In this document: positions 1 through 13,330 of the stretch, in pieces
Position numbering within the stretch: position 1 is the first letter of the stretch
How the letters are laid out: every line of letters begins with the position of its first letter
From: Photobacterium sp. DA100
GTDB lineage: Bacteria > Pseudomonadota > Gammaproteobacteria > Enterobacterales > Vibrionaceae
Length of the DNA stretch: 64,000 bases
Assembly (NCBI RefSeq): GCF_029223585.1
Contig: NZ_CP119423.1
Location: 2,666,001-2,730,000, forward strand
Direction of reading: 5' to 3'
Translations under genes and position numbers: made by a program
The notes under the pieces: model-generated
Database searches by the model: none
Told to the model about the DNA's origin: nothing
Seen by the model: only the letters and a program-made list of their open reading frames with translations

Positions 1-967
1 GCTGAACAGCCGTATCGATGATCTGGACCTTAACCTTGAAGACTTCACCCAGCGCGTAAACAGCGACGTAGTCAACAAGATTGTTAACCTAGCATCTCGT
101 AACGCAGGCTTCATCGCCAAGCGCTTCGAAGGCAAACTGTCTGACAACTTTGCCGAGCCTGAGCTATACGCAGAGTTCGTTGCAGCGGCTGATCGCATCG
201 CCGAGCTATACGAAACCCGCGAGTTTGGCCGCGCTATCCGCGAAATCACCGCCCTGGCCGACAAAGCCAACCAGTACGTTGACGAGAAAGCTCCTTGGGT
301 TGTGGCTAAGCAAGAAGGCAAAGATCAGGAACTACAGGAAATCTGCTCTGTCGGTATCAACCTGTTCCGCGTACTGATGACTTACCTGAAACCTGTTATG
401 CCTCAGCTTGCTGAACGTACAGAAGGCTTCCTGAACGAAACGCTGACGTGGGATGGTATTGCCCAGCCACTAACCGGCCACGAAGTGACCAAGTTCAAAG
501 CGCTGTTCAACCGCATCGATGCCAAGAATGTCGAAGCCATGGTTGAATCTTCGAAAGAAGATGCGGCCGCTGAAGTCGCAGCGAAAGAAAAAGCTGAAGC
601 AGCGAAGACAGAAACTGAACTGAGCAAAGACCCGATTGCAGACGAAATCGAGTTCGATGATTTTGCCAAGGTTGATATGCGTATCGCCAAAATCATTTCT
701 TGCGAAGAAGTGCCTAAAGCGAACAAACTGCTTAAGTTCCAGCTCGATATCGGCGGTGAAACCCGTCAGGTATTCTCAGGCATCAAGTCGGCCTACACGC
801 CGGAAGAGCTTGTTGGCAAGCACACGGTAATGGTGGCCAACCTGAAGCCACGCAAGATGAAGTTCGGCATGTCTGAAGGCATGATCCTTGCTGCAGGCCC
901 TGGCGGTAAAGATCTGTGGATCCTTGAACCGCACGAAGGTGCCCAGCCAGGTATGCGCGTAATGTAA
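1..967 (+). CDS. metG: Methionyl-tRNA synthetase, C-terminal part (5' end outside window)
   Basis: This is the last 321 codons of methionine-tRNA ligase, which charges tRNA-Met in the cytoplasm; the Rossmann catalytic domain lies upstream of the window. The reading frame is open from base 2. The first 150 or so residues are the helical anticodon-binding domain ([20 protein letters not shown], then [18 protein letters not shown]). A charged linker rich in Lys, Glu and Ala follows, then a C-terminal OB-fold tRNA-binding domain of the EMAP/Trbp111 type ([12 protein letters not shown] ... [13 protein letters not shown] ... [19 protein letters not shown]), ending PGMRVM as in Enterobacteria. A strong terminator follows at 997-1024, so it ends its own transcript. 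Identification is firm. Confidence 0.96.
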
Positions 968-996
968 TACGCCGGTCTTAACAGACGCCCATGACT

Positions 997-1024
997 AAAC
1001 CAGCTCAATTGAGCTGGTTTTTTT
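997..1024 (+). terminator. Rho-independent terminator of metG
   Basis: A perfect 24-base palindrome (AAACCAGCTC ... GAGCTGGTTT around AATT) begins 30 bases after the metG stop and is followed by a run of T. Confidence 0.9.
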
Positions 1025-1167
1025 ATATCTGAATAAAGGCGAAATTTTTATTTATGCGACGGAAGACCAGGCAAAGCCACTTATAGTTAATTAGCACACG
1101 TTACAAATAAAGCCGATTTGCATGCAGAACAATTGCACCTTGATGGTTCACCAAAGAGGGATACACA

Positions 1168-2289
1168 TTGAATCGCGATGATAATGAAAACCTAAAGCAA
1201 GTACTGTCGGCAGCGTTTACGGCCTCGTTAATCCGCTTCTCGGTTATCACCTTAATTGTTTTAGTGTGCTTTTGGGCATTCTTGCCCTTTCTCCCGATTT
1301 TAATGTGGGCTTTAGTACTTGCCATTGCACTTTATCCTGTCCGGCAATTCCTGGAAGCTAAGTTTGGCTGGTCCGCTGCGCGGACATCCACCCTAATAGC
1401 CATTGTCGGTGTGCTAGTGCTCGGTATCCCAACTGCCATGGTAGGTAACTCGTTCGCATCAAAGATATTTGGCGCCTATGAAGCTTACGAGGCAGGGACC
1501 CTCGAGGTACCTGCACCTTCGGCCAGTGTCAAAGAGTGGCCATTGGTGGGAGATAAAATGCATGAAGCCTGGCAAGAGGCTGCAGCAGATCTCCCCCGTT
1601 TCGTAGAAAGACGTCAACCGCAACTCAAAAGTTTGTCCAGCTGGTTTGTAGAGAAGGCAAGCGGCGCTGCAAGAAGTGTCTTCCTGATGATTGGAGCCAT
1701 TATTCTCGCAGGCATAATGCTGGCCTGGGCTGAGCCAGCTAGCCGTTCGACACGTCGGATTTTCACCAGCTTTTCCAACCGCGAAATTGGACCGGAATTA
1801 CACCATCTCACCACTGCGACGATCAGGCAGGTTGCTGTTGGCATCATTGGCATTGCATTCCTCACCGCGGTGGTATTTGGTGCAGCCGTTGCGCTTGCTG
1901 GCGTACCCGCAGCGGCATTGTTTACATTGATTGCTTTGATATTCGCAATTATGCAGCTGCCAGTGACGATTGTGGCTCTCGTCGCAGTTGGGCTGCTGTG
2001 GTCAAGCGGAGAGAACTCAACACTGCACAATACGATATTTTCTATTTTGATCATTGCTGCAAGCCTGATCGACAACTTTCTGAAACCCATGATCCTGGGC
2101 CGGGGGCTAGATGTACCAATGCCGGTAGTCTTGATAGGTGCAATTGGTGGCATGATGTCTGGCGGCATATTGGGGATGTTTATCGGAGCCGCTTTCCTCT
2201 CTGCGGGCTATCAAGTCTTTATGAAATGGGTTGATTCAGAAAATGCGCCCTCCCCAGCCGGCAGCAAACGGCCCAAAGGTGGAGAGTGA
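1168..2289 (+). CDS. AI-2E/PerM family transporter (YdiK-like)
   Basis: A 373-residue inner-membrane protein of the AI-2E transporter/UPF0118 (PerM, COG0628) family, most like E. coli YdiK in length and C-terminal pattern. Two membrane segments lie at about residues 20-60 and another near 75-95, then a soluble loop, then four or five segments from about 165 to the end. The family's conserved C-terminal block is present (DNFLKPMILGRGLDVPMPVVLIG ... GMFIGAAFLSAGY). The start is TTG: no in-frame ATG occurs before the first membrane segment and an AGAGGG ribosome site sits 7-8 bases upstream of 1168. Substrate is unknown; family members have been linked to autoinducer-2 export and, in some halophiles, to Na+/H+ exchange. 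It is monocistronic by position. Confidence 0.85.
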   Translation: MNRDDNENLKQVLSAAFTASLIRFSVITLIVLVCFWAFLPFLPILMWALVLAIALYPVRQFLEAKFGWSAARTSTLIAIVGVLVLGIPTAMVGNSFASKIFGAYEAYEAGTLEVPAPSASVKEWPLVGDKMHEAWQEAAADLPRFVERRQPQLKSLSSWFVEKASGAARSVFLMIGAIILAGIMLAWAEPASRSTRRIFTSFSNREIGPELHHLTTATIRQVAVGIIGIAFLTAVVFGAAVALAGVPAAALFTLIALIFAIMQLPVTIVALVAVGLLWSSGENSTLHNTIFSILIIAASLIDNFLKPMILGRGLDVPMPVVLIGAIGGMMSGGILGMFIGAAFLSAGYQVFMKWVDSENAPSPAGSKRPKGGE

Positions 2290-2860
2290 TCCGTAACCTC
2301 TCCTGCCTACGGCAACGTTGCTTGGTCACCGGCCTAACTTTTTTCTCACCAAAATGGATTTCGTGCAAAAAACCACCACTCCACCATTCCCGCCGCCCCC
2401 AGATTCATTAACTTTTTTTACATATGTTAAAAGACGAAATATTGGTGATATCTAATTTTCCAGTTTTGAAAACTGCAAGACAGATCGCAGAAAGAAAATA
2501 AAATCAATGCTGGCATTTTTTCCCCCGCAATCAGCAATCCAAACAAAAACCTTTAAAATTAACAACCTAAGATATTTACCAATAATCCCCAGTGGCGTTC
2601 CCCCCGACAATACCCATGGATAATCCGAGCTATAAGCTCGAATTTACCGATGTGACGGAAATCATTGCTAACAATTTGACATCAATTGAAACAACAGATT
2701 GGTACCAAATGAGCTACATGAGCATAACCTTAGGAACTGTGCTTTGAATTGCGGCCTTGGATGGGCAAGCAATTCAACAGCGGGTCGAAAAATGAGCACG
2801 GATGGTTTGTTTCCTCTCATTTATACACTCATCCCCCAGGCAGTTATCAAGGTATTTGTA
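2290..2860 (+). promoter_or_regulatory. Gene-free upstream region of the A/V-type ATPase operon
   Basis: About 570 bases of AT-rich DNA with no convincing gene. It holds a small palindrome at 2461-2475 (CAGTTTT/AAAACTG), a 6-bp hairpin at 2626-2640 (CGAGCT/AGCTCG), a CRP-like site at 2651-2666 (TGTGA-N6-TCATT, 8 of 10 core matches) and a perfect -35-like TTGACA at 2676-2681 without a good -10 partner. An open frame runs from a TTG at 2699 into the B-subunit gene, but its extra 54 residues do not resemble the family. Promoter assignment is tentative. Confidence 0.3.
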
Positions 2861-4234
2861 ATGCCACAGAGTCTATTACGTTACACCAACATACTCAGTA
2901 TCGTCGGTGATTTGATCCGGGTAGAAGTACCCAACCTCTCGTCAAGCAATGCGAAGGCCAAGTACGGCGATCTCGCGATGGTCGAGCAAAACGGTGAAAA
3001 CTACTCGCTCGCTCAGATCATCAAAATCGACAACGAAGAAGTCTCGCTTCAGGTCTTTGCCGGCTGTAAAGGTCTCTCAACCAATGCCGCCGTTTGCTTC
3101 CTTGACCAACCGATGCAGGTCACCTACTCACCGAATATCCTCGGCCGCATCTTCGACGGTGCCGGGCAGCCAATCGACCATGGTCCGGAGCTTGAGACCG
3201 ATCCCAAGGTTGAAATCGACGGCCCTTCGGTCAACCCGGTCCGCCGTACGCTAGCCACCCGCATGGTACGGACCAACGTGCCGATGATCGATGTGTTCAA
3301 CACCTTGGTTGAATCGCAGAAAATTCCTATTTTCTCTGTCGCCGGCGAGCCATACAACAAATTCCTCGCCCGCATAGCCATCCAGGCCGAAGCCGATGTG
3401 GTGGTCTTCGCCGGAATGGGGCTTATCTATGACGACTACCATTTCTTCAAAACCCAGTTTGAGGAAGCCGGCGTGTCATCCCGTACCGTGATGTTTGTCA
3501 ACCAAGCCTCGGACCCTACCGTTGAACGCTTGCTGGCACCGGACATGGCGCTCTCGGTCGCGGAACATTTTGCTGTCGATGAAAGCAAACGGGTACTGGT
3601 GCTGCTGACCGACATGACCTCCTATGCCGATGCGATGAAAGAAATCGGGGTCGCGATGGACAAGATCCCCGCTAACCGGGGTTACATGGGCGATCTCTAC
3701 TCCCAGTTAGCCAAACGCTACGAAAAGGCCTGCGACTACAAAGGCGCCGGCTCTGTCACCTTGCTGGCGGTGACCACCATGCCGGGCAACGATGTCACCC
3801 ACCCGGTACCGGATAACACCGGATACATCACCGAAGGACAATTCTATCTGCACGATGGCGTGCTTGACCCATTCGGCTCGCTGTCCCGTCTTAAGCAGAT
3901 GGTGGTCGGCAAAGAAACCCGAGAAGATCACAGCGCCATCATGAGTGTGATGATTCGCTTCTACTCTGATTCCGTCGAGGCCCAGCAGAAGCAGGCCATG
4001 GCGTTCGAACTATCGGAGTATGACAAGAAAACACTGAAATTCGGCAAGTACTTCAAGGACAACTTCATGACACTGGACGTCGACATGAACCTGGAAGACG
4101 CCCTGGACTTCAGTTGGAAAATCCTCGCGGAGTGTTTTGATCCCGAAGAAACCTTGATCAAAGACAGCCTGCTGGAAATGTACTGGCCGTATCCAGAGCA
4201 GTTAGATCTGGACACAGAAGCAGCAGAGGGTTAA
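2861..4234 (+). CDS. A/V-type ATP synthase/ATPase subunit B
   Basis: The 457-residue non-catalytic nucleotide-binding subunit of a rotary A/V-type ATPase; three copies alternate with subunit A in the cytosolic head. The N-terminal beta-barrel begins [16 protein letters not shown]. In place of a Walker A loop it has [15 protein letters not shown], as is usual for B subunits, followed by [16 protein letters not shown] and the tail YDYxGAGSVT-like segment [19 protein letters not shown] with [20 protein letters not shown]. The start at 2861 was chosen because it has AAGG at the right distance and gives the family's normal N-terminus. It is the first gene of the operon and sits 3 bases before the D gene. 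F1-type beta was considered and excluded because the catalytic P-loop is missing. Confidence 0.93.
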
Positions 4235-4237
4235 TCC

Positions 4238-4861
4238 ATGGCTAAGGTAGCACTTAACAAAAGCTCGCTAAACAAGCAAAAGCGGAGTTTGAAAACCTAC
4301 AACCGCTACCTACCTGCGTTGGAACTGAAGCGACAACAATTGATGCTGGAGCGCAAAAAAGCCGAGCAGGCTCTGGAGCAAGCTAAACTACGCGTTGCCG
4401 ATTTGCGCGCGGTGGTAGAGGAAGCAATTCCGATGCTCGCCTGCAAGGATATTAACGTCAATAACCTGGTCAAGGTCACCGACGTTAAGCTAGCCACCCA
4501 GAACATTGTTGGTTGCCGGGTCCCGATTGTCGAGTCGGTCGACATCGAAGTGACCCCATACAGTTATCTTGCCCGCCCGCACTGGGTCGATAGTGTGGTC
4601 CGCCAGCTGAAGGAAATGGTTCGTTTGCGTGTTGAACTGGCTGTATACCAGCAACGCTACGAGCTGATCAGCGATGCCACACGGATCACCAGCCAGCGCG
4701 TGAATTTGTTCTCGAAGGTACTTATCCCTGATACCCAAGAAAGTATCAAACGGATTGGCATCTACCTATCGGATCAAGATCGCGCCGCGGTAATGAACGC
4801 CAAGCTATCGAAACAAAAAGTGCTGGCACAGCAAGAGAAAGCGCAGGGAGGCCAATCATGA
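4238..4861 (+). CDS. A/V-type ATPase subunit D (central stalk)
   Basis: A 207-residue subunit D, the long coiled-coil rotor shaft that turns inside the A3B3 head. The family N-terminal pattern is clear: a basic start (LNKSSLNKQKRSLKTYNRYLPALELKRQQLMLERKKAEQALEQA), then a central globular part and a second long C-terminal helix (SQRVNLFSKVLIPDTQESIKRIGIYLSDQDRAAVMNAKLSKQKV). This two-helix hairpin and the LFxKVLIP motif are diagnostic of V-type D subunits. The gene follows subunit B by 3 bases and overlaps the start of the subunit I gene by 4 bases (ATGA), so translation is probably coupled. Confidence 0.9.
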   Translation: MAKVALNKSSLNKQKRSLKTYNRYLPALELKRQQLMLERKKAEQALEQAKLRVADLRAVVEEAIPMLACKDINVNNLVKVTDVKLATQNIVGCRVPIVESVDIEVTPYSYLARPHWVDSVVRQLKEMVRLRVELAVYQQRYELISDATRITSQRVNLFSKVLIPDTQESIKRIGIYLSDQDRAAVMNAKLSKQKVLAQQEKAQGGQS

Positions 4862-6663
4862 GTATCAAACAGCTAAAACGCCTGACACTCGGTGGTCAAG
4901 CTTCCCGCCGGGAAGAAATCCTGATGGCATTGCAGGCCCTTGGCTGCATGCACCTGATCCCGCTCAGCCAGGATGAGGCCGACGCCAACCATGCGATGGC
5001 CATGCAGCAGCCCTCCGATGCCAGCGAGGCATTGGCCTGGCTGAGCCGGGTCGAGCGCAGGCGCCGCCCAGTCAGGGACAAGGACTTGGTAGATGTCGAG
5101 GAATTGGTCTCCCAGATCCTCGAAAACAAACTCCATATCCGCCAGCAGCAGGACAAGCGCGATTTGCTCAAAGAGCGTCTGCAACTGCTACGTCCCTGGG
5201 GGGAGTTTGAACTACCTGACATCAGCACCATCAACAACTTGCGCTTCTGGTTTTACCTATTGCCACTGAAAAAACTCTCTGCTATGGCAGAGGTTGATCT
5301 GCCTTGGCAAGAGGTGCACAGGGACCAGAAAAATGCCTATATCGTGATTGTATCTGAGTCCGAGCCCGATCCGGTACTGCTTCCGGTTGACCGTTCGCAC
5401 ATTGGTGGCAATAGCCTATCCCAGGTCGAGGAACACCTAGAGATTGCCGAGCAGCACCTGGAAGACTTGCTGGCCGAACGCGAGGCGCTAACCCGCTGGA
5501 TCTATCCGCTCAGCCAGTCCCTGGCAGCCAGTCAGGACAAGGCCGAGTTGCTATTGGCTTCCTCTGGAGTTCAGGATGAAGGCGAGTTCTTCCTGATCCA
5601 GGGATGGATGCCGGCCGACGCCCAGGACGCAGTGCTCGAGCTGGCCGAGGCCTATGGCTCTGCCGTGCTGTTCGAAGATCCCAAAGCCGATGACCAGCCT
5701 CCGACCCTGCTGGAAAACTCCGAGCTTACCGGAGGAGGCGCCGAGGCAATGGGCTTTTTCCAGACCCCTAACTACCGTGCATGGGACCCGGGCAACCTGG
5801 TGTTTTATTCGTTCTCGTTGTTCTTCGCGATGATCATGAATGATGCCATGTACAGCGCCATTCTCGGCCTGATCATCCTGTTCTTCCGTGACAAGTTCGA
5901 TGCCTCGCCAGAAGGCAAGCGACTGAAGAATATGGGGCTGTTCATGTCCGGGCTGGGCATTTTCTGGGGCGTGCTCGCCGGCAGCTACTTTGGTATCGCG
6001 CCAGAGGAAGGCAGCTTCTGGGGCTTTTTCCACATCATCGACATGAACGACTACGGCGCCATGATGCGGCTGTCGGTCTTTATCGGTGTCATGCACCTGA
6101 TCATCGCCAACGTGATGACCGCCTACATCAACCGCCCCCACAAACGTGCTTTCGCCCCGCTTGGCTGGGCGGCACTGATGTTTGGCGGCATGCTGTTGTG
6201 GTTCGGGATCAGCGGCGCGGTCTGGAGCTGGTTCGGCAAGGGGCTCGGCGGACTGTTGATGCTGGGCGGCGCCGGCCTGGTGTGTGTCTATAGCAGTGAC
6301 CGGCCAATCAATAGCCGTATGGATATGGCACTCCGCGTACTCGATGGTGCCAAGGCGATTTACAACATTACCAGTGCCTTCGGTGACATCCTGAGCTACA
6401 TGCGTCTGTTCGCACTTGGCTTATCCGGTGCATCGCTGGCGATGACATTTAACTCATTGGCAGGACAAGTGGTCGAAGCCCAGCCCGTTTCAGGGGTGTT
6501 GTTTGGCGGTTTGATCTTGCTGCTTGGCCATATTCTCAACTTCGCGCTCTGTGTCATGAGTGGCGTGGTACACGGTATGCGCCTAAACGTAATTGAATTT
6601 GTTAACTGGGGCCTATCCGACGAAGGATACCCATTCAAAGCTTTTCGGAAGAAAGAGGATTAA
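4858..6663 (+). CDS. A/V-type ATPase subunit I (a subunit, ion-conducting stator)
   Basis: A 601-residue membrane stator subunit. The first half (about 1-300) is the cytosolic coiled-coil/alpha-beta arm that contacts the peripheral stalk. The second half has seven or eight membrane helices starting near LVFYSFSLFFAMIMNDAMYS. The essential arginine facing the rotor glutamate is at residue 516 in GDILSYMRLFALGLSG, the family signature. The final helices (GHILNFALCVMSGVVHGMRLNVIEF) contain the expected HGxRLxxxEF motif. It overlaps D upstream and lies 3 bases from K downstream. The protein is somewhat shorter than many archaeal I subunits (about 650) but complete. Confidence 0.93.
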   Translation: MSIKQLKRLTLGGQASRREEILMALQALGCMHLIPLSQDEADANHAMAMQQPSDASEALAWLSRVERRRRPVRDKDLVDVEELVSQILENKLHIRQQQDKRDLLKERLQLLRPWGEFELPDISTINNLRFWFYLLPLKKLSAMAEVDLPWQEVHRDQKNAYIVIVSESEPDPVLLPVDRSHIGGNSLSQVEEHLEIAEQHLEDLLAEREALTRWIYPLSQSLAASQDKAELLLASSGVQDEGEFFLIQGWMPADAQDAVLELAEAYGSAVLFEDPKADDQPPTLLENSELTGGGAEAMGFFQTPNYRAWDPGNLVFYSFSLFFAMIMNDAMYSAILGLIILFFRDKFDASPEGKRLKNMGLFMSGLGIFWGVLAGSYFGIAPEEGSFWGFFHIIDMNDYGAMMRLSVFIGVMHLIIANVMTAYINRPHKRAFAPLGWAALMFGGMLLWFGISGAVWSWFGKGLGGLLMLGGAGLVCVYSSDRPINSRMDMALRVLDGAKAIYNITSAFGDILSYMRLFALGLSGASLAMTFNSLAGQVVEAQPVSGVLFGGLILLLGHILNFALCVMSGVVHGMRLNVIEFVNWGLSDEGYPFKAFRKKED

Positions 6664-6666
6664 AAC

Positions 6667-7116
6667 ATGGAACAATTTGTTATTGCACTTGGCTGGTTGG
6701 GCGCGTTCGCTCCTGTTGCACTGGGTGCTATTGGTTCAGCTATCGGCTGTTCGGTAGCCGGCCAGGCTGCTTGTGGTGCCATGCTGGATGTTGAATCTGG
6801 TTACGGTAAGTACATCGGTCTGTCTGCCATGCCTTCCTCTCAGGTTATCTACGGTATCGTGATTATGTTCACCCTAGCAGGTATTGGTGTCGACGCCGAA
6901 ACCGCTGGCGGTCTGTTCGGTGTTGGCTTGATGACAGGTCTGGCCCTGCTGTTCTCTGCTATCTACCAGGGGCAGGCAGTCTCGGCTGCTATCAATGCTT
7001 CTAAGAACAAGCCCGAAGTATTCGGCCTATCGATTGCCCCAGCGGCAATTGTTGAAGGCTTCTCGGTTTTTGCTTTCGTTTTTGCGCTAGTCATGGGTGC
7101 CAACATCGGCGCATAA
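6667..7116 (+). CDS. A/V-type ATPase subunit K (proteolipid rotor ring), probable Na+-binding
   Basis: A 149-residue proteolipid with four membrane helices, a duplicated two-helix hairpin, forming the rotor ring. The single carboxylate is Glu130 in helix 4 (APAAIVEGFSVFAFVFA). Helix 2 carries PSSQVIYG (Ser57, Ser58, Gln59) and helix 3 YQGQAVSAA (Gln101, Gln103). In the Enterococcus hirae Na+-ATPase the Na+ ligands are a Thr-Gln pair in helix 2, a Gln in helix 3 and the helix-4 Glu, so the same pattern is visible here with Ser for Thr. That supports Na+ rather than H+ coupling, by inference. Located between I and E in the operon. Confidence 0.93.
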   Translation: MEQFVIALGWLGAFAPVALGAIGSAIGCSVAGQAACGAMLDVESGYGKYIGLSAMPSSQVIYGIVIMFTLAGIGVDAETAGGLFGVGLMTGLALLFSAIYQGQAVSAAINASKNKPEVFGLSIAPAAIVEGFSVFAFVFALVMGANIGA

Positions 7117-7126
7117 GGAACAGAAC

Positions 7127-7810
7127 ATGCCAGTAGACAATCAAAACACCACACCGGTTTCCGCCGGGATCAAGCAGCTGGTCGACACACTTCGCCAGGA
7201 AGGTGTCGAGGCCGGTAAGCAAGCTGCCGACCAAATCATTGCCGAAGCGCGTGAAGAGGCATCGACCATCGTTGCCGAAGCCCGTGATAAAGCAGGCCTG
7301 ATCCTTGGCAATGCCCGCAAGGAAGCCGACTTTATTTCAACCGCCGGCAAGCAGGCGTTCGAAATGGCCAACCGCAACGCGATTTTGGAGCTCAAGGCTT
7401 TCTTGCAAGATGAGTTTGCCAAGCAGATCAAGGCAACAGTCGGTACCCAGATGACGGATGAAAAGCTGTTGCAGCAGATGATCCTCGAAGTGGCCGGCCG
7501 CAGCGCGATCAAAACCGATGAGCCGGTTGAAGTGATCTTGCCGACCCGCGTAGTCGGCGTGAACGATTTGAGCGCCAACCCCGAAGAACTCAAGGAAGGC
7601 ACCCTGATCCACTTCGCAGTTGCCCAGGCGGCCGAGATGCTGCGCGAAGGCGTGACCTTCAACGTCAGCGAGGATAACAAAAACGCCGTTGTGTTCCGCC
7701 TGAAAGATAAAGATATCGAAGTGGCACTGTCGGATGAAACCGTCACCCAAATGATGCTTAACCACCTCCAGCCTCGTTTCCGCGCGCTGTTGGAAGGTAT
7801 CGTCAAATAA
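7127..7810 (+). CDS. A/V-type ATPase subunit E (peripheral stalk)
   Basis: A 227-residue subunit E. The N-terminal 100 residues are a charged right-handed coiled coil with hendecad-like spacing (GKQAADQIIAEAREEASTIVAEARDKAGLILGNARKEADFI), and the C-terminal globular domain would sit on top of the B subunit. An open frame extends upstream to 7097 over the end of subunit K, but the ATG at 7127 has an AAGGAA ribosome site and gives a plausible start. No separate subunit G/H, the usual partner in the peripheral stalk, is found in the operon. The call rests on coiled-coil pattern, length and position. Confidence 0.8.
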   Translation: MPVDNQNTTPVSAGIKQLVDTLRQEGVEAGKQAADQIIAEAREEASTIVAEARDKAGLILGNARKEADFISTAGKQAFEMANRNAILELKAFLQDEFAKQIKATVGTQMTDEKLLQQMILEVAGRSAIKTDEPVEVILPTRVVGVNDLSANPEELKEGTLIHFAVAQAAEMLREGVTFNVSEDNKNAVVFRLKDKDIEVALSDETVTQMMLNHLQPRFRALLEGIVK

Positions 7811-7857
7811 GTACAAGAGGCAGGCTTGCCCTGCCTCTCCTTTAACAAGGAACGTAT

Positions 7858-8538
7858 ATGTCTGATAAAGCATATCATGGCCTGTTGACGTCGCTGCCGC
7901 ATATCGACTCTCTGTTTGATAGCAAAATCACGCCGATTTCCCGTTACCAACTGGAGCGTCGATTAAGTGCCCTGTCGTTCGATGAGCGCAGGCGCCTCAA
8001 TATGATTGAGCAAATCATGCATTGGGATCGCACCAAAGACGATGCCGATGACGCCGAGCTGATCAAGTTTGCCACCCGGGCACGCAGCCAGGTAAAAAGC
8101 AAAGTGCTGCAGGATCTGATTGACTGGCGCTTGGACATGCGCTCTGTGGTGGCCGCCCTGCGGCGTAAAAAAGCCGGAGAAAAAGCCCCGGCCGAGCCGC
8201 GATGGAGCTTTGGTACCCGCTACGAATTTATCCGCCGCAACTGGAATGTGCCTTATTTCAATCTGCACTTTACTTTCCCTTGGCTGCCGGATGTCGCTCG
8301 GTACATGGAGCACGACCAGAGCCTGGACGTTGAAAAAGCCTTGCTCGAGGCCGTCTGGGAGCAGCTAGACCGTATCAGCACCAAAGAGCGCTTTAGCTTC
8401 GAAGCCGTGGTGATTTACCTATTGCGCTGGAATTTGGTTTTCCGCTGGACCACTTACGACAGCGAAATAGCTATCGAGCGATTCGACCAACTCGTAGAGA
8501 ACGCACTGGGTGACTTTGCCAGTGATCTACCGCATTAA
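7858..8538 (+). CDS. DUF2764 family protein of the A/V-type ATPase operon
   Basis: A 226-residue soluble, mainly helical protein with no membrane segment. The N-terminus (YHGLLTSLPHIDSLFDSKITPISRYQLERRL) matches the pattern of DUF2764 proteins, which in Chlamydia, Spirochaetes and Bacteroidetes lie between the E and A genes of V-type ATPase clusters. It holds that same place here. Subunit C, which joins stalk and ring, is missing from the operon, so DUF2764 may do the C job; this is inference. An ACAAGGAACGT ribosome site precedes 7858. Family assignment is from pattern and context and should be treated as probable. Confidence 0.72.
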   Translation: MSDKAYHGLLTSLPHIDSLFDSKITPISRYQLERRLSALSFDERRRLNMIEQIMHWDRTKDDADDAELIKFATRARSQVKSKVLQDLIDWRLDMRSVVAALRRKKAGEKAPAEPRWSFGTRYEFIRRNWNVPYFNLHFTFPWLPDVARYMEHDQSLDVEKALLEAVWEQLDRISTKERFSFEAVVIYLLRWNLVFRWTTYDSEIAIERFDQLVENALGDFASDLPH

Positions 8539-8559
8539 TTTAGACAAACAGGTTGTTCA

Positions 8560-10398
8560 ATGAGCACGGAATTAATCAATAAAACGCCGACTGCCCACGT
8601 TACGGCAGTCATTGGCGATACCCTGACCATCCGCCTGAACCCGGGCGAGAAAGGCCAACTGGTCAAAAACGAAGTCGTGTATGTGCTGCCGAGCCGCAAG
8701 CAAACCGACGGCCTTGACGAAATGCTGATGGCCGAAGTGCTGCGTGTACGCGGTGATTCTGCCGATATCCAGGTCTACGAAGATACCCGCGGCGTTGCTG
8801 TCGGTGACAGCATAATCCAAACCGGGGAAATGCTGAGCGTCGACTTGGGGCCTGGGATCTTGGCCCAAATCTATGATGGCCTGCAAAATCCGCTTGAGCG
8901 CCTGGCGCAAATTCATGGCAAGTTCCTCAAACGTGGTGTGCAGGTAGACGCGCTCGATAAAGCCGAGACCTGGGCCTTTACGGCAGTAGCCAAAAAAGGG
9001 GACAAACTGCGTGCTGGTCAATCGCTGGGGACGGTGCAGGAGGGCCGCTTTACCCATCAGATTATGGTGCCTTTCTATATTAAGGGCGAAGTCGAAGTAA
9101 CCTGGATCCAGGAAGGCAGCTTTACGGTTGATACCGTTATTGCTCACATCACCGACAACCGCGGCAAGGAGCATAACCTGACCATGGTTCAGAAGTGGCC
9201 AGTGCGCCAATCTATCGCCAATACCCTGACCAAAAACGGTGGCAAGACCCAGCGCAAATTCCCTAATGAGCCCTTGGTGACCACAACCCGTACCATTGAT
9301 ACCTTCTTCCCGATTGCCCGTGGCGGAACAGGGTGTGTACCGGGCCCATTCGGCTCGGGCAAAACTGTACTACAGCACGGGATCTCCCGCTATTGTGACG
9401 CTGACATTGTTATCGTGGTGGCCTGTGGCGAGCGTGCCGGTGAAGTGGTCGAAACCATCGAAGAGTTTCCTCACCTGCCGGATCCTAAGCATGGTGGTAC
9501 CCTTATCGACCGTACCGTTATCATCTGCAATACCTCATCCATGCCGGTTGCGGCTCGTGAGGCCTCAATCTATACCGGCCTGACACTGGGCGAGTACTAC
9601 CGCCAGATGGGCTACAACGTACTGTTGCTGGCCGACTCGACCTCGCGCTGGGCACAGGCGATGCGTGAAACGTCCAACCGCCTGGAGGAGATCCCTGGCG
9701 AAGAGGGCTTCCCGGCCTACATGGACTCGGCCATCAAGGGCGTTTATGAGCGCTGCGGTGTGGTGGATAACGAAAACGGCACGGACGGCTCGCTCACCAT
9801 GATTGGCTCGGTGTCTCCCGCCGGCGGTAACTTCGAAGAACCCGTCACCCAGTCAACCCTGGGGACGGTCAAGACCTTCCTGGGCCTGTCATATGACCGC
9901 GCCTACAAGCGCTTCTACCCGGCCATTGACCCGCTGATCTCCTGGTCCCGCTACCTCGATCAACTTGAAGGCTGGTATGCCGAAAACCTCGGCCCAGAAT
10001 GGGTACCTACGGTCAAAGAGATGAAGGCCCTGCTATCGACCGGCGACAGCATCGGCCAGATGATGCAGGTAACCGGTGAGGAAGGGATCTCGCTGGAGGA
10101 CTACGTGGTCTATCAGAAAGCGCTGTTCCTCGACATGGTGTACCTGCAGCAGGATGCCTTCGACGAAGTCGACGCGTCGTGTAGTTTCGAGCGACAGCAG
10201 TTTGTCTTCGGCAAGGTGGTTGATGTGATCCGCACCGAGTACGACTTCTCAGATAAAGCCGAAGCCCGTAAGTACTTTACGGCCATGACGCGATACTTCC
10301 GTAACTTCCATTACGCCAAAGACAATACCGCGGAATACCACGACTATGTCTCTCGGATTGAGATGTTGTTGGAGGATACAACCAGCGCCACTGCATAA
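8560..10398 (+). CDS. A/V-type ATP synthase/ATPase catalytic subunit A
   Basis: The 612-residue catalytic subunit that hydrolyses or makes ATP. The Walker A loop GPFGSGKT is at residues 262-269. It is followed by the A-subunit block ACGERAGEVVETIEEFPHLPDP and by MPVAAREASIYTGLTLGEYYRQMGYNVLLLADSTSRWAQAMRE, with the arginine-bearing SWSRYLDQLEGWY region further on. The large 'non-homologous' insertion before the P-loop that distinguishes A from F1-beta is present (residues about 115-190). The gene ends the operon, after DUF2764, whereas in Chlamydia-type clusters A precedes B. A large hairpin lies just downstream. Very confident. Confidence 0.96.
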   Translation: MSTELINKTPTAHVTAVIGDTLTIRLNPGEKGQLVKNEVVYVLPSRKQTDGLDEMLMAEVLRVRGDSADIQVYEDTRGVAVGDSIIQTGEMLSVDLGPGILAQIYDGLQNPLERLAQIHGKFLKRGVQVDALDKAETWAFTAVAKKGDKLRAGQSLGTVQEGRFTHQIMVPFYIKGEVEVTWIQEGSFTVDTVIAHITDNRGKEHNLTMVQKWPVRQSIANTLTKNGGKTQRKFPNEPLVTTTRTIDTFFPIARGGTGCVPGPFGSGKTVLQHGISRYCDADIVIVVACGERAGEVVETIEEFPHLPDPKHGGTLIDRTVIICNTSSMPVAAREASIYTGLTLGEYYRQMGYNVLLLADSTSRWAQAMRETSNRLEEIPGEEGFPAYMDSAIKGVYERCGVVDNENGTDGSLTMIGSVSPAGGNFEEPVTQSTLGTVKTFLGLSYDRAYKRFYPAIDPLISWSRYLDQLEGWYAENLGPEWVPTVKEMKALLSTGDSIGQMMQVTGEEGISLEDYVVYQKALFLDMVYLQQDAFDEVDASCSFERQQFVFGKVVDVIRTEYDFSDKAEARKYFTAMTRYFRNFHYAKDNTAEYHDYVSRIEMLLEDTTSATA

Positions 10399-10404
10399 GC
10401 TTTA

Positions 10405-10478
10405 AAATCAGGCAGTTAAACATAGCAACCAGCATACCTGCCGTCAGGTGGTGCTGGTTTGTTATGGCCGCCTGATTT
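10405..10478. repeat. 74-base nested inverted repeat after the ATPase operon
   Basis: Three stacked stems: AAATCAGGC/GCCTGATTT (9 bp, perfect) outside, CATAGCAACCAGCA pairing with 10452-10466 (14 bp with one wobble and one bulge), and ACCTG/CAGGT around CCGT at the tip. It begins 6 bases after the subunit A stop. There is no T-tract on either side, so it is an atypical terminator, an mRNA-stabilising 3' structure or a mobile palindromic unit. Confidence 0.7.
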
Positions 10479-10962
10479 CGCGACAACGCGGCACCCGCAA
10501 CAAAAGTGCAAAACACCATACCAATGGAAAATAAGGACCCAGAATAAACCCAGGAAAGCAGGATTAATCACTTAGAATTTACCGGCCAGGCAGATAATTT
10601 AACCTTGCCGTCACACCTGATACTTTGCGGGCATCAAGCACCATAAAATCCTGCAAAAGCGAATGTTAAAAGGGGCTTTTCCCACCCCCGAAAATCAGGT
10701 GCAAACTCGGCAAAACCTTAGCAAAATTTCGCTCAAAACGATTTATCAGCACAAAAAACGCCCAAAAACCGCCGAGTGCGTTAAAATTCAGTTAATAAAT
10801 ATGTTTTCAGAATATCGTACTGCCACAAAAAGTGTGATCTGAAACATATCTTTGATTATTGCTCAGCATTTTACTTCGCATTAACACGCGAAGTGCTGTT
10901 AACCTGCTCCGCGCTCTGGTGAAAGATTTACAGAGTGAATAATTATAAGGAGTGTTTTATTC
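10479..10962 (+). promoter_or_regulatory. Upstream region of the dicarboxylate/amino-acid symporter gene
   Basis: About 480 bases without a gene. A CRP-like site lies at 10833-10848 (TGTGA-N6-ACATA, 8 of 10 core matches), which would fit catabolite control of a carboxylate or glutamate transporter. A 7-bp hairpin (ACTTCGC/GCGAAGT) is at 10873-10894. An AAGGAG ribosome site directly precedes the ATG at 10963. The operator call is tentative. Confidence 0.35.
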
Positions 10963-12270
10963 ATGCAAGCACAAAAGAAAAAAATGTCCCTGACCGGCCG
11001 AGTAATTCTGGGTATGGTTCTGGGCATCTTGACAGGATTCATTATTCGTTCACTTTTTTCTGAATCATCTTTTGTCCACGAATATATTGTGAATGGCCTG
11101 TTCGAGGTCGGTGGTGCAATCTTCATTGCAAGTTTGAAGATGCTCGTTGTGCCACTGGTGTTTGTCTCTCTGGTGTGCGGTACCAGTACACTTAAAGACA
11201 TCAGCACGCTGGGCCGCCTGGGCGGGAAAACTCTGGCGTTCTACCTGAGCACCACCGCGATTGCTATTTCACTGGCCCTCGTTATGGGTAACCTGTTCAA
11301 GCCAGGTGCCGGTGCAGACCTTTCTGCTGCAACGACATTTGCCTCTAGAGAAGCGCCGTCACTGGGTCAGGTCATTATCGACATGTTCCCGACCAACCCA
11401 ATCAGCTCGATGGCTAACGGTAACACGCTGCAGATCATCGTGTTCGCTATCCTGTTCGGTATCGCAATCAGCGCTGCAGGCAAGCCGGGGGAGCGTATTG
11501 CAGGTATCTTCGCTGATCTCAATGAAGTGATCATGAAGCTAGTTGCCCTGCTGATGAACATTGCCCCATTCGGTGTTTTCTTCCTGATGGCAAAACTGTT
11601 CACCGGTCTAGGTCTTGATGCGATTTTCAATCTATTAGGTTACTTCCTGGTACTGACTTGTACTCTGCTGCTGCACGGTATCGTGGTGTACGGTTCACTG
11701 TTCAAAATCTTCACCGGTTTGAGCCCGAAAGTGTTCCTGAAGAAGATGGAAGATGCGATCATGTTCGCCTTCTCCACCGCGTCTTCAAACGCAACAATTC
11801 CTGTAACTATGGAAACGGCGACCAAGCGTCTTGGCGTGAAAAACCGTATCGCATCATTCACGGTACCACTTGGCGCAACCATCAACATGGATGGTACGGC
11901 GATCATGCAGGGTGTGGCGACGGCATTCATTGCCCAAGCATTTAACATCGACCTGACCATGGGTGATTACTTAATGGTCATTGCAACAGCAACTCTGGCT
12001 TCGATCGGTACTGCTGGTGTGCCGGGTGTCGGTCTTATCATGCTGGCAATGGTATTGAACCAAGTTGGCCTTCCGGTTGAAGGTATCGCAATTATCATGG
12101 GTGTTGACCGTCTGCTGGATATGATCCGTACCGCAGTCAACATCACAGGTGATAGCTGCGTCACCTGTATCGTTGCCAAATCAGAAGGTGAGATGGATAT
12201 CAACCGCTTCAACGACCCGCATGCGGGCGAAAAAGAAGAAGAGGTTCACCTACACCCAATTCGCGATTAA
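10963..12270 (+). CDS. Dicarboxylate/amino acid:cation symporter (DAACS family, GltP/DctA-like)
   Basis: A 435-residue secondary transporter of the glutamate/dicarboxylate:cation symporter family (TC 2.A.23), with eight membrane helices and two re-entrant hairpins. Hairpin 1 carries STASSNATIPVTM, helix 7 NMDGTAIMQG, hairpin 2 the GTAGVPGVG loop, and helix 8 DMIRTAVNITGDSC. The Arg in DMIRT is the residue that binds the side-chain carboxylate of acidic substrates, so glutamate, aspartate or a C4-dicarboxylate is the likely substrate. Helix 7 and hairpin 2 residues are those used for Na+ binding in GltPh. It has its own terminator and is not part of the ATPase operon, though a Na+-pumping ATPase next door would suit a Na+-driven importer. 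Confidence 0.9.
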   Translation: MQAQKKKMSLTGRVILGMVLGILTGFIIRSLFSESSFVHEYIVNGLFEVGGAIFIASLKMLVVPLVFVSLVCGTSTLKDISTLGRLGGKTLAFYLSTTAIAISLALVMGNLFKPGAGADLSAATTFASREAPSLGQVIIDMFPTNPISSMANGNTLQIIVFAILFGIAISAAGKPGERIAGIFADLNEVIMKLVALLMNIAPFGVFFLMAKLFTGLGLDAIFNLLGYFLVLTCTLLLHGIVVYGSLFKIFTGLSPKVFLKKMEDAIMFAFSTASSNATIPVTMETATKRLGVKNRIASFTVPLGATINMDGTAIMQGVATAFIAQAFNIDLTMGDYLMVIATATLASIGTAGVPGVGLIMLAMVLNQVGLPVEGIAIIMGVDRLLDMIRTAVNITGDSCVTCIVAKSEGEMDINRFNDPHAGEKEEEVHLHPIRD

Positions 12271-12484: not shown

Positions 12485-13330
12485 ATGCTTTATTTTTTTC
12501 TTATCCTCTGTCTTACTGGCATTTTGCTCAGTGCCGTCATGGTCCGTACCCACCAACAGCGCGACCTGCTGCAAAGCCGCTTCAATCAAATTATCGGCCT
12601 GCGTCAGCTGATCCACCTGCTGCGTTTCCATCGTCGCCGCTCGCACCAGGCCTTGAAGCACACCTCGGCAGAGAGCCTGAGCGAAGCGATCGCAATCAAG
12701 ACCCTACTCCACAGCCTGATCAGCCAAGCAGAAAAGCCCAACAAGCCGATGTACCGGATCCTCAGCAAACAGCTGAGCACCATGCTCGATGAATGGCCCA
12801 AGTATTCTACGCAGCGCAACCAGTCCACCCACGGTAAAGCCATCCGCCATGTGCTGTACCTGATTGATGATACCCTGACCCAATGCCTTATCACGTGCGA
12901 GAAAGACGAACTATTCAAACATTATCAAGGTACATGGCCAGTGATGCTCAATGCTATCGACAGCCTGAGTCGCTTCCGTTATGCCATTGAAAACTATGAG
13001 ATGGGCACCGATGTCATGGCAAGAGAGCTTGGACTTCACGCCCAGATCCTCAAACGTAGAATGGCGCAGCTGCATTTGCCCGGTGATCCCGCAGTACCAC
13101 CACTGATCATCGAGAAGTTGTTCAGCCACTACGACAGCATCAATATGAATGGTCATGACAAGGAGTTGGTCAAGCACCAACTCTACCAGTTCTCGTTAGA
13201 GGCGTCGGATACCCTATTTCACCTGTTTGATCTGGTACTTGGCCATATCGGTGCACAGCTGTCGATTAAATTGCCGGAGCTGGCAACGAGGGAGGATAAG
13301 AAAGTGGTGCAGATCATTGCCCGGCACTAA
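12485..13330 (+). CDS. Unrecognised membrane-anchored helical protein
   Basis: I do not recognise this 281-residue protein. It begins with one hydrophobic segment (LYFFLILCLTGILLSAVMV, residues 2-20) followed by basic residues, so it is probably anchored with the rest in the cytoplasm. The remainder is predicted to be all-helical, rich in Leu, His, Arg and Gln, without obvious catalytic motif, repeats or cysteine clusters (RFNQIIGLRQLIHLLRFHRRR; EMGTDVMARELGLHAQILKRRMAQL). A GGGAGG ribosome site sits 5 bases before the ATG, which supports it being expressed. It faces the yjiH-like gene tail to tail. Confidence 0.65.
   Translation: MLYFFLILCLTGILLSAVMVRTHQQRDLLQSRFNQIIGLRQLIHLLRFHRRRSHQALKHTSAESLSEAIAIKTLLHSLISQAEKPNKPMYRILSKQLSTMLDEWPKYSTQRNQSTHGKAIRHVLYLIDDTLTQCLITCEKDELFKHYQGTWPVMLNAIDSLSRFRYAIENYEMGTDVMARELGLHAQILKRRMAQLHLPGDPAVPPLIIEKLFSHYDSINMNGHDKELVKHQLYQFSLEASDTLFHLFDLVLGHIGAQLSIKLPELATREDKKVVQIIARH

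Follow-up and report, generated by a model that had tools for sequence, protein, structure and literature searches.

The window analyzed here, 64,000 nucleotides of Photobacterium sp. DA100 (contig NZ_CP119423.1, positions 2,666,001 to 2,730,000), carries at positions 2861 to 10398 of the forward strand an operon of seven open genes for a V/A-type rotary ATPase in the order B-D-I-K-E-DUF2764-A. This raises the question of what the enzyme is, where it came from and what it may do in a genome (6.01 Mb in two contigs) that also encodes the alpha and beta subunits of an F-type ATP synthase. The original prediction had read the locus as an acquired second rotary ATPase of unusual gene order: the second ATPase and the acquisition held up, while the unusual order did not. 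In our judgment the locus likely encodes a complete, horizontally acquired V/A-type rotary ATPase of the bacterial DUF2764 subtype, in an order typical of its clade and most likely working as an ATP-driven Na+ exporter. The main outcomes are the predicted assignment of DUF2764 to subunit C, the predicted coupling to Na+ and indications hinting at a link with arginine fermentation.

A complete operon in clade-typical order

The operon is a second rotary ATPase beside the F-type enzyme, and both the open reading frames and the Pfam and NCBIfam matches agree with the proposal that its order is a rotation of E-DUF2764-A-B-D-I-K. The products of B, D, I, K, A and the DUF2764 gene match models of Pfam and/or NCBIfam above the cut-offs (Table 1), and E falls below them, being named because of sub-cut-off matches to V-type E models and the same place in complete relatives. 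The intergenic gaps from B to A are 3, -4, 3, 10, 47 and 21 bases, the ATG start of B gives an N terminus common to relatives, and an ordered seven-gene operon of this kind is far beyond chance. The V-type enzymes of Bacteroides, Chlamydia and spirochaetes are encoded by the same seven genes, including DUF2764. The window thus has the clustered gene set of that type (E being the weaker member) and departs from it in having E-DUF2764-A after K and not before B.

An alignment-of-A scan, from which the best 80 of 522 relatives were taken, and 14 further loci provided 94 loci for examination. Of these, 68 have the complete order B-D-I-K-E-DUF2764-A, seven the complete classical order E-DUF2764-A-B-D-I-K and 18 a partial gene set, most of them interrupted by contig ends, while one (L020) is another V-type operon; in the named subset of 80, complete permuted loci number 58 and complete classical ones six. 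Since the loci were chosen by similarity to the window's A subunit and the scan favors close sequences, the permuted share is no census. By record title, the permuted order occurs in Gamma- and Alphaproteobacteria, Cyanobacteria, Planctomycetes, Nitrospirales, Gemmatimonadota and Myxococcota, and the classical order in Verrucomicrobia, Kiritimatiellae, Victivallis, Desulfuromonas and one uncultured bacterium, as well as in genome G383. Classical-order loci encode A subunits 50 to 54% identical to that of the window, and the DUF2764 protein of the classical kind used for comparison has 261 residues, versus 226 in the window.

On the A tree, a branch with support of 95 splits permuted from classical rows, and the minimum number of order changes is one both on this tree (68 versus 7 rows) and on the B tree (67 versus 7). 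The A tree comes from a quick search with Shimodaira-Hasegawa-like approximate likelihood-ratio (SH-aLRT) support only, and two partial rows on its permuted side (L097 and L099) are long-branched and of unsure placement. A rearrangement unique to this locus is rejected by the order counts, and the alternative raised with the prediction, that the order is common among Proteobacteria, largely holds for this ATPase type among loci picked by similarity. The permuted order is a variant of the DUF2764-type V-ATPase and a clade marker, no local oddity; being typical of a broad clade and compatible with a single switch on the trees of A and B, it predates the acquisition described below. No description of the order was found among the literature matches listed, and it could serve as a simple marker for a transferable, putatively Na+-pumping ATPase clade seen in several phyla. 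V-type ATPases in Proteobacteria have been in print since 2008: Table 1 of PMC2359735 lists Labrenzia (Stappia), Neptuniibacter, Nitrococcus and Nitrosococcus, along with Synechococcus WH 5701.

The largest cluster of neighboring genes around the loci comprises 11 loci, with strands and sides mixed. As side observations, in L049 (2736-11708) some 6 kb lie between DUF2764 and the subunit A gene that follows it, and L047 (8178-10052) has a subunit A with no other subunits found on its 18-kb contig.

Probable acquisition beside metG and transfer between genera

Of the 52 genomes of the genus, seven have subunit D (PF01813), and six of these hold this operon, all beside metG, where it had been predicted as an insert; the gene-free flanks, predicted at about 560 bp, have the measured lengths given in Table 1. 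The operon is complete and contiguous in five carriers; that of G034 is broken between two contigs, with metG-B-D and the first part of I on one and I-K-E-DUF2764-A-SDF on the second. The seventh genome (G027) has a different V-type operon (L020, 3744-10999), with an A subunit of 41% identity and a short I subunit. Among the 46 genomes that lack this operon, the metG region was fetched for 20; in 19 of these, metG adjoins the SDF-family symporter gene across a short gap, while G010 has an additional SDF-like gene between them. A functional link of the ATPase to the metG-SDF site was rejected, as metG and SDF adjoin in non-carriers anyway.

DUF2764 occurs in 9 of 296 genomes of the family sample and in 5 of 369 of the class sample, the window's own genome included, so that the alternative raised with the prediction, that most Vibrionaceae carry the locus, is not the case. 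Three carriers outside the genus, G424 and G433 (both taken as Thaumasiovibrio) and G637 (Vibrio astriarenae), have the same order, and their fetched regions do not include metG. The nine rows from Vibrionaceae make up a clade of the A tree (support 100) that is sister to four Endozoicomonas-like rows (90), and both lie within a clade of 15 that includes L035 and L036 (100). The Endozoicomonas operons, the nearest rows outside Vibrionaceae, share the order and have A subunits 74% identical to that of the window, with different neighbors, e.g., ornithine carbamoyltransferase just upstream (L031 to L033). One of these, L032, is titled Salinisphaera sp. G21_0; its operon hardly differs from the one in Endozoicomonas acroporae, and the record is probably mistitled.

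The operon tree is at odds with the genus. Photobacterium G036 pairs with the Vibrio carrier, and forced monophyly of the five complete Photobacterium operons (G034 left out) was rejected by the approximately unbiased test (P = 4.8e-6). As members of the genus do not group together in the operon tree, we conclude that the operon has moved within Vibrionaceae. On a species tree of 21 rows (metG, serS, rarA and lolA), from which three species, including carrier G034, were left out for having too few markers, operon presence requires at least two changes. The simplest reading is acquisition at the metG-SDF site together with transfer between genera. It could be argued instead that the operon is old in the genus, or in an ancestor shared with Thaumasiovibrio, and has been lost several times: the carriers have the operon at a single site and group in one region of the species tree with weak support (66/96), and a relative of h281, the gene of unknown function beyond SDF (12485-13330), follows A in both Thaumasiovibrio genomes, joined in G433 by serS. 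Such an old origin is, however, unlikely in our view, given the short metG-SDF gaps in 19 of the 20 fetched non-carriers, the rejection of a united Photobacterium clade and the few family genomes with DUF2764. A possible variant is an old gain at the metG site, followed by a small number of losses and a single transfer into Vibrio. The protein h281 is 78 to 96% identical in four other carriers, 39 to 56% in non-carriers where found, and 53% in G036.

DUF2764 as a predicted short subunit C

The classical V/A-ATPase of Thermus, Enterococcus and archaea has nine subunits, and the Ntp gene set of Enterococcus hirae serves here for comparison. Relative to it, the genome of the window lacks F and a classical C and offers no convincing G: a genome-wide search at E values of up to 1 matched neither subunit F (PF01990) nor subunit C (PF01992), and the only two matches for G/H (AhaH), the first within the E gene and the second beside the F-type genes, were below cut-off.

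Structure models of DUF2764 from both branches suggest what may take the place of subunit C. Only C/d chains stand out, with 190 to 251 aligned residues at 9 to 16% identity, and a helical C/d fold is predicted over most of DUF2764. We therefore predict from the models that DUF2764 is a short form of V/A-ATPase subunit C (V0 d). It would share the fold of Thermus subunit C and eukaryotic V0 d, which are longer (about 310 to 350 residues, versus 226 or 261). If DUF2764 were instead a distinct protein of assembly or regulation whose arrangement of helices is a common one, the weak Foldseek scores (no match at E 0.001) and the lack of a PF01992 match to the window's DUF2764 protein itself would be understandable, and a sequence search of the PDB found no V-ATPase chain either. 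We hold this to be very unlikely, since C/d chains alone stand out over so many residues, PF01992 ranks second in frequency among Pfam families in both sets of the DUF2764 comparison, and neither the operon nor, by PF01992, the genome offers another C. With DUF2764 assigned to subunit C, the subunit plan of the DUF2764-type V-ATPase becomes directly testable.

Predicted Na+ coupling and mode of action

Subunit K of the window aligns to NtpK of E. hirae (2bl2) with the Na+ ligand residues kept: S58, Q59, Y62, Q101 and E130 correspond to T64, Q65, Y68, Q110 and E139, and at NtpK positions 61, 64, 65, 68, 110 and 139 the window has M, S, Q, Y, Q and E. Across 74 K subunits of permuted loci, S or T at position 64, Q110 and E139 are present in all 74, Y68 in 70 and Q65 in 51. 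The ligand roles in NtpK are partly from the available text of PMC2359735 and partly general knowledge. To judge from these residues, the window ATPase is probably Na+ coupled.

The same enzyme might be proton coupled, or run as an ATP synthase and not as a pump. Sequence does not fix the direction, 23 of the 74 relatives lack Q65, and some H+-ATPases retain part of the Na+ ligand set, according to the accessible part of PMC2359735. Against this, the window K has the full set, including Q59 and Y62, and the available portion of PMC10197588 describes a Bacteroides relative, with DUF2764 as the second gene of its operon, as having all Na+ residues, which leaves a proton-coupled or synthesizing enzyme a rather improbable alternative. 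For the favored Na+ exporter, we envisage that (i) ATP hydrolysis by the A3B3 head would turn subunit D, (ii) DUF2764, as a short subunit C, would seat D on the K ring, and (iii) the ring would carry Na+ past subunit I, which E would tie to the head. Such an exporter would most likely supplement the F-type enzyme under limited respiration, and operation as a Na+-driven synthase is possible. In the available parts of a preprint and an mBio paper on Bacteroides fragilis, the DUF2764-containing V-ATPase is called uncharacterised and said to have fewer subunits than other bacterial V-type enzymes, and its mutants are among those with the most extreme bile-acid defects.

Linkage to arginine deiminase genes

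Genes of the arginine deiminase pathway lie in the fetched flanks of 9 of the 94 loci, all nine complete and permuted. In L066 (Hoeflea; 3-5802) and L053 (Aestuariivita; 1238-5809) they form one run, arcA-arcB-arcC-B-D-I-K-E-DUF2764-A, with 24 bases between arcC, the carbamate kinase gene, and B in the former and the arcC stop overlapping the B start in the latter; in L105 (Tateyamaria; 3254-5717) the end of arcC lies 9 bases inside B. In L035 (1117-5452), arcA and arcC precede the operon with more space before B, the Ruegeria loci L058 and L060 have an arginine deiminase set some kilobases downstream, and L031 to L033 have only the ornithine carbamoyltransferase gene. In L035 and L105, the arcC match does not reach the TIGR00746 cut-off. 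An arcC (E 1e-50) is present in 13 of the 58 genomes with named complete permuted loci, in six of these inside the fetched flank, where the chance expectation, estimated from flank and genome lengths, is well under one.

The position of arc genes before the operon hints at an arginine-fueled ion pump. More broadly, and tentatively, as we put it somewhat below even chances, one ancestral rearrangement may have founded a large, horizontally traveling clade of seven-subunit, F-less, Na+-pumping ATPases with DUF2764 as a minimal subunit C, in several lineages wired to arginine fermentation so that ATP from carbamate kinase would yield a sodium gradient. Two observations weigh against a general arc link: 45 of the 58 genomes lack such an arcC, and in the genome of the window arcA lies about 0.7 Mb from the operon, unlinked. 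A link in the window's own genome was rejected, arcA being present in all six carriers but also in 29 of the 46 other species of the genus, no clear difference, as was an arcC just past the flank in E. acroporae, where it is on another contig. No arc-ATPase cluster was described in the titles and abstract openings of the listed matches naming both systems, and a paper on arc gene clusters does not mention the ATPase in its main text. The linkage offers a testable physiological role for the ATPase clade.

Other features of the locus

Table 1. Coordinates of the ATPase operon and its surroundings in the window
Feature	Position	Strand	Evidence or remark
AI-2E-family transporter gene	1168-2289		between metG and 5' gap
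5' gene-free gap, 571 bases	2290-2860		G+C 0.413, versus 0.548 in operon
V-type ATPase subunit B (noncatalytic)	2861-4234	+	NCBIfam PRK02118, 701 bits (cut-off 431)
Subunit D (central shaft)	4238-4861	+	PF01813, 5e-40; PRK02195 above cut-off
Subunit I (membrane stator, a-type)	4858-6663	+	PF01496 above cut-off; V-type subunit I models below cut-offs
Subunit K (double-hairpin rotor ring subunit)	6667-7116	+	PRK09621 above cut-off; alignment to 2bl2
Subunit E (peripheral stalk)	7127-7810	+	V-type E models, 73 and 56 bits, below cut-offs; position
Hairpin between E and DUF2764	7815-7839	+ (scan gave - strand)	stem of 9 to 10 base pairs
DUF2764 protein, predicted short subunit C/V0 d (rotor socket)	7858-8538	+	
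Subunit A (catalytic)	8560-10398	+	PRK04192, 767 bits (cut-off 470); PF16886 insertion domain
3' gene-free gap, 564 bases	10399-10962		G+C 0.424
SDF-family dicarboxylate symporter gene	10963-12270	+	PF00375; right edge of insertion site, outside the ATPase

The G+C content of the operon falls in the range of the window, and composition is thus uninformative on origin. Promoter-like sites are no commoner than in shuffled sequences (6 versus a mean of 6.4). The hairpin between E and DUF2764 was not seen in the same form in the Endozoicomonas loci folded; it is kept in all eight aligned Vibrionaceae loci, with one pair changed on both sides, and could determine how much E-side relative to A-side transcript is made.
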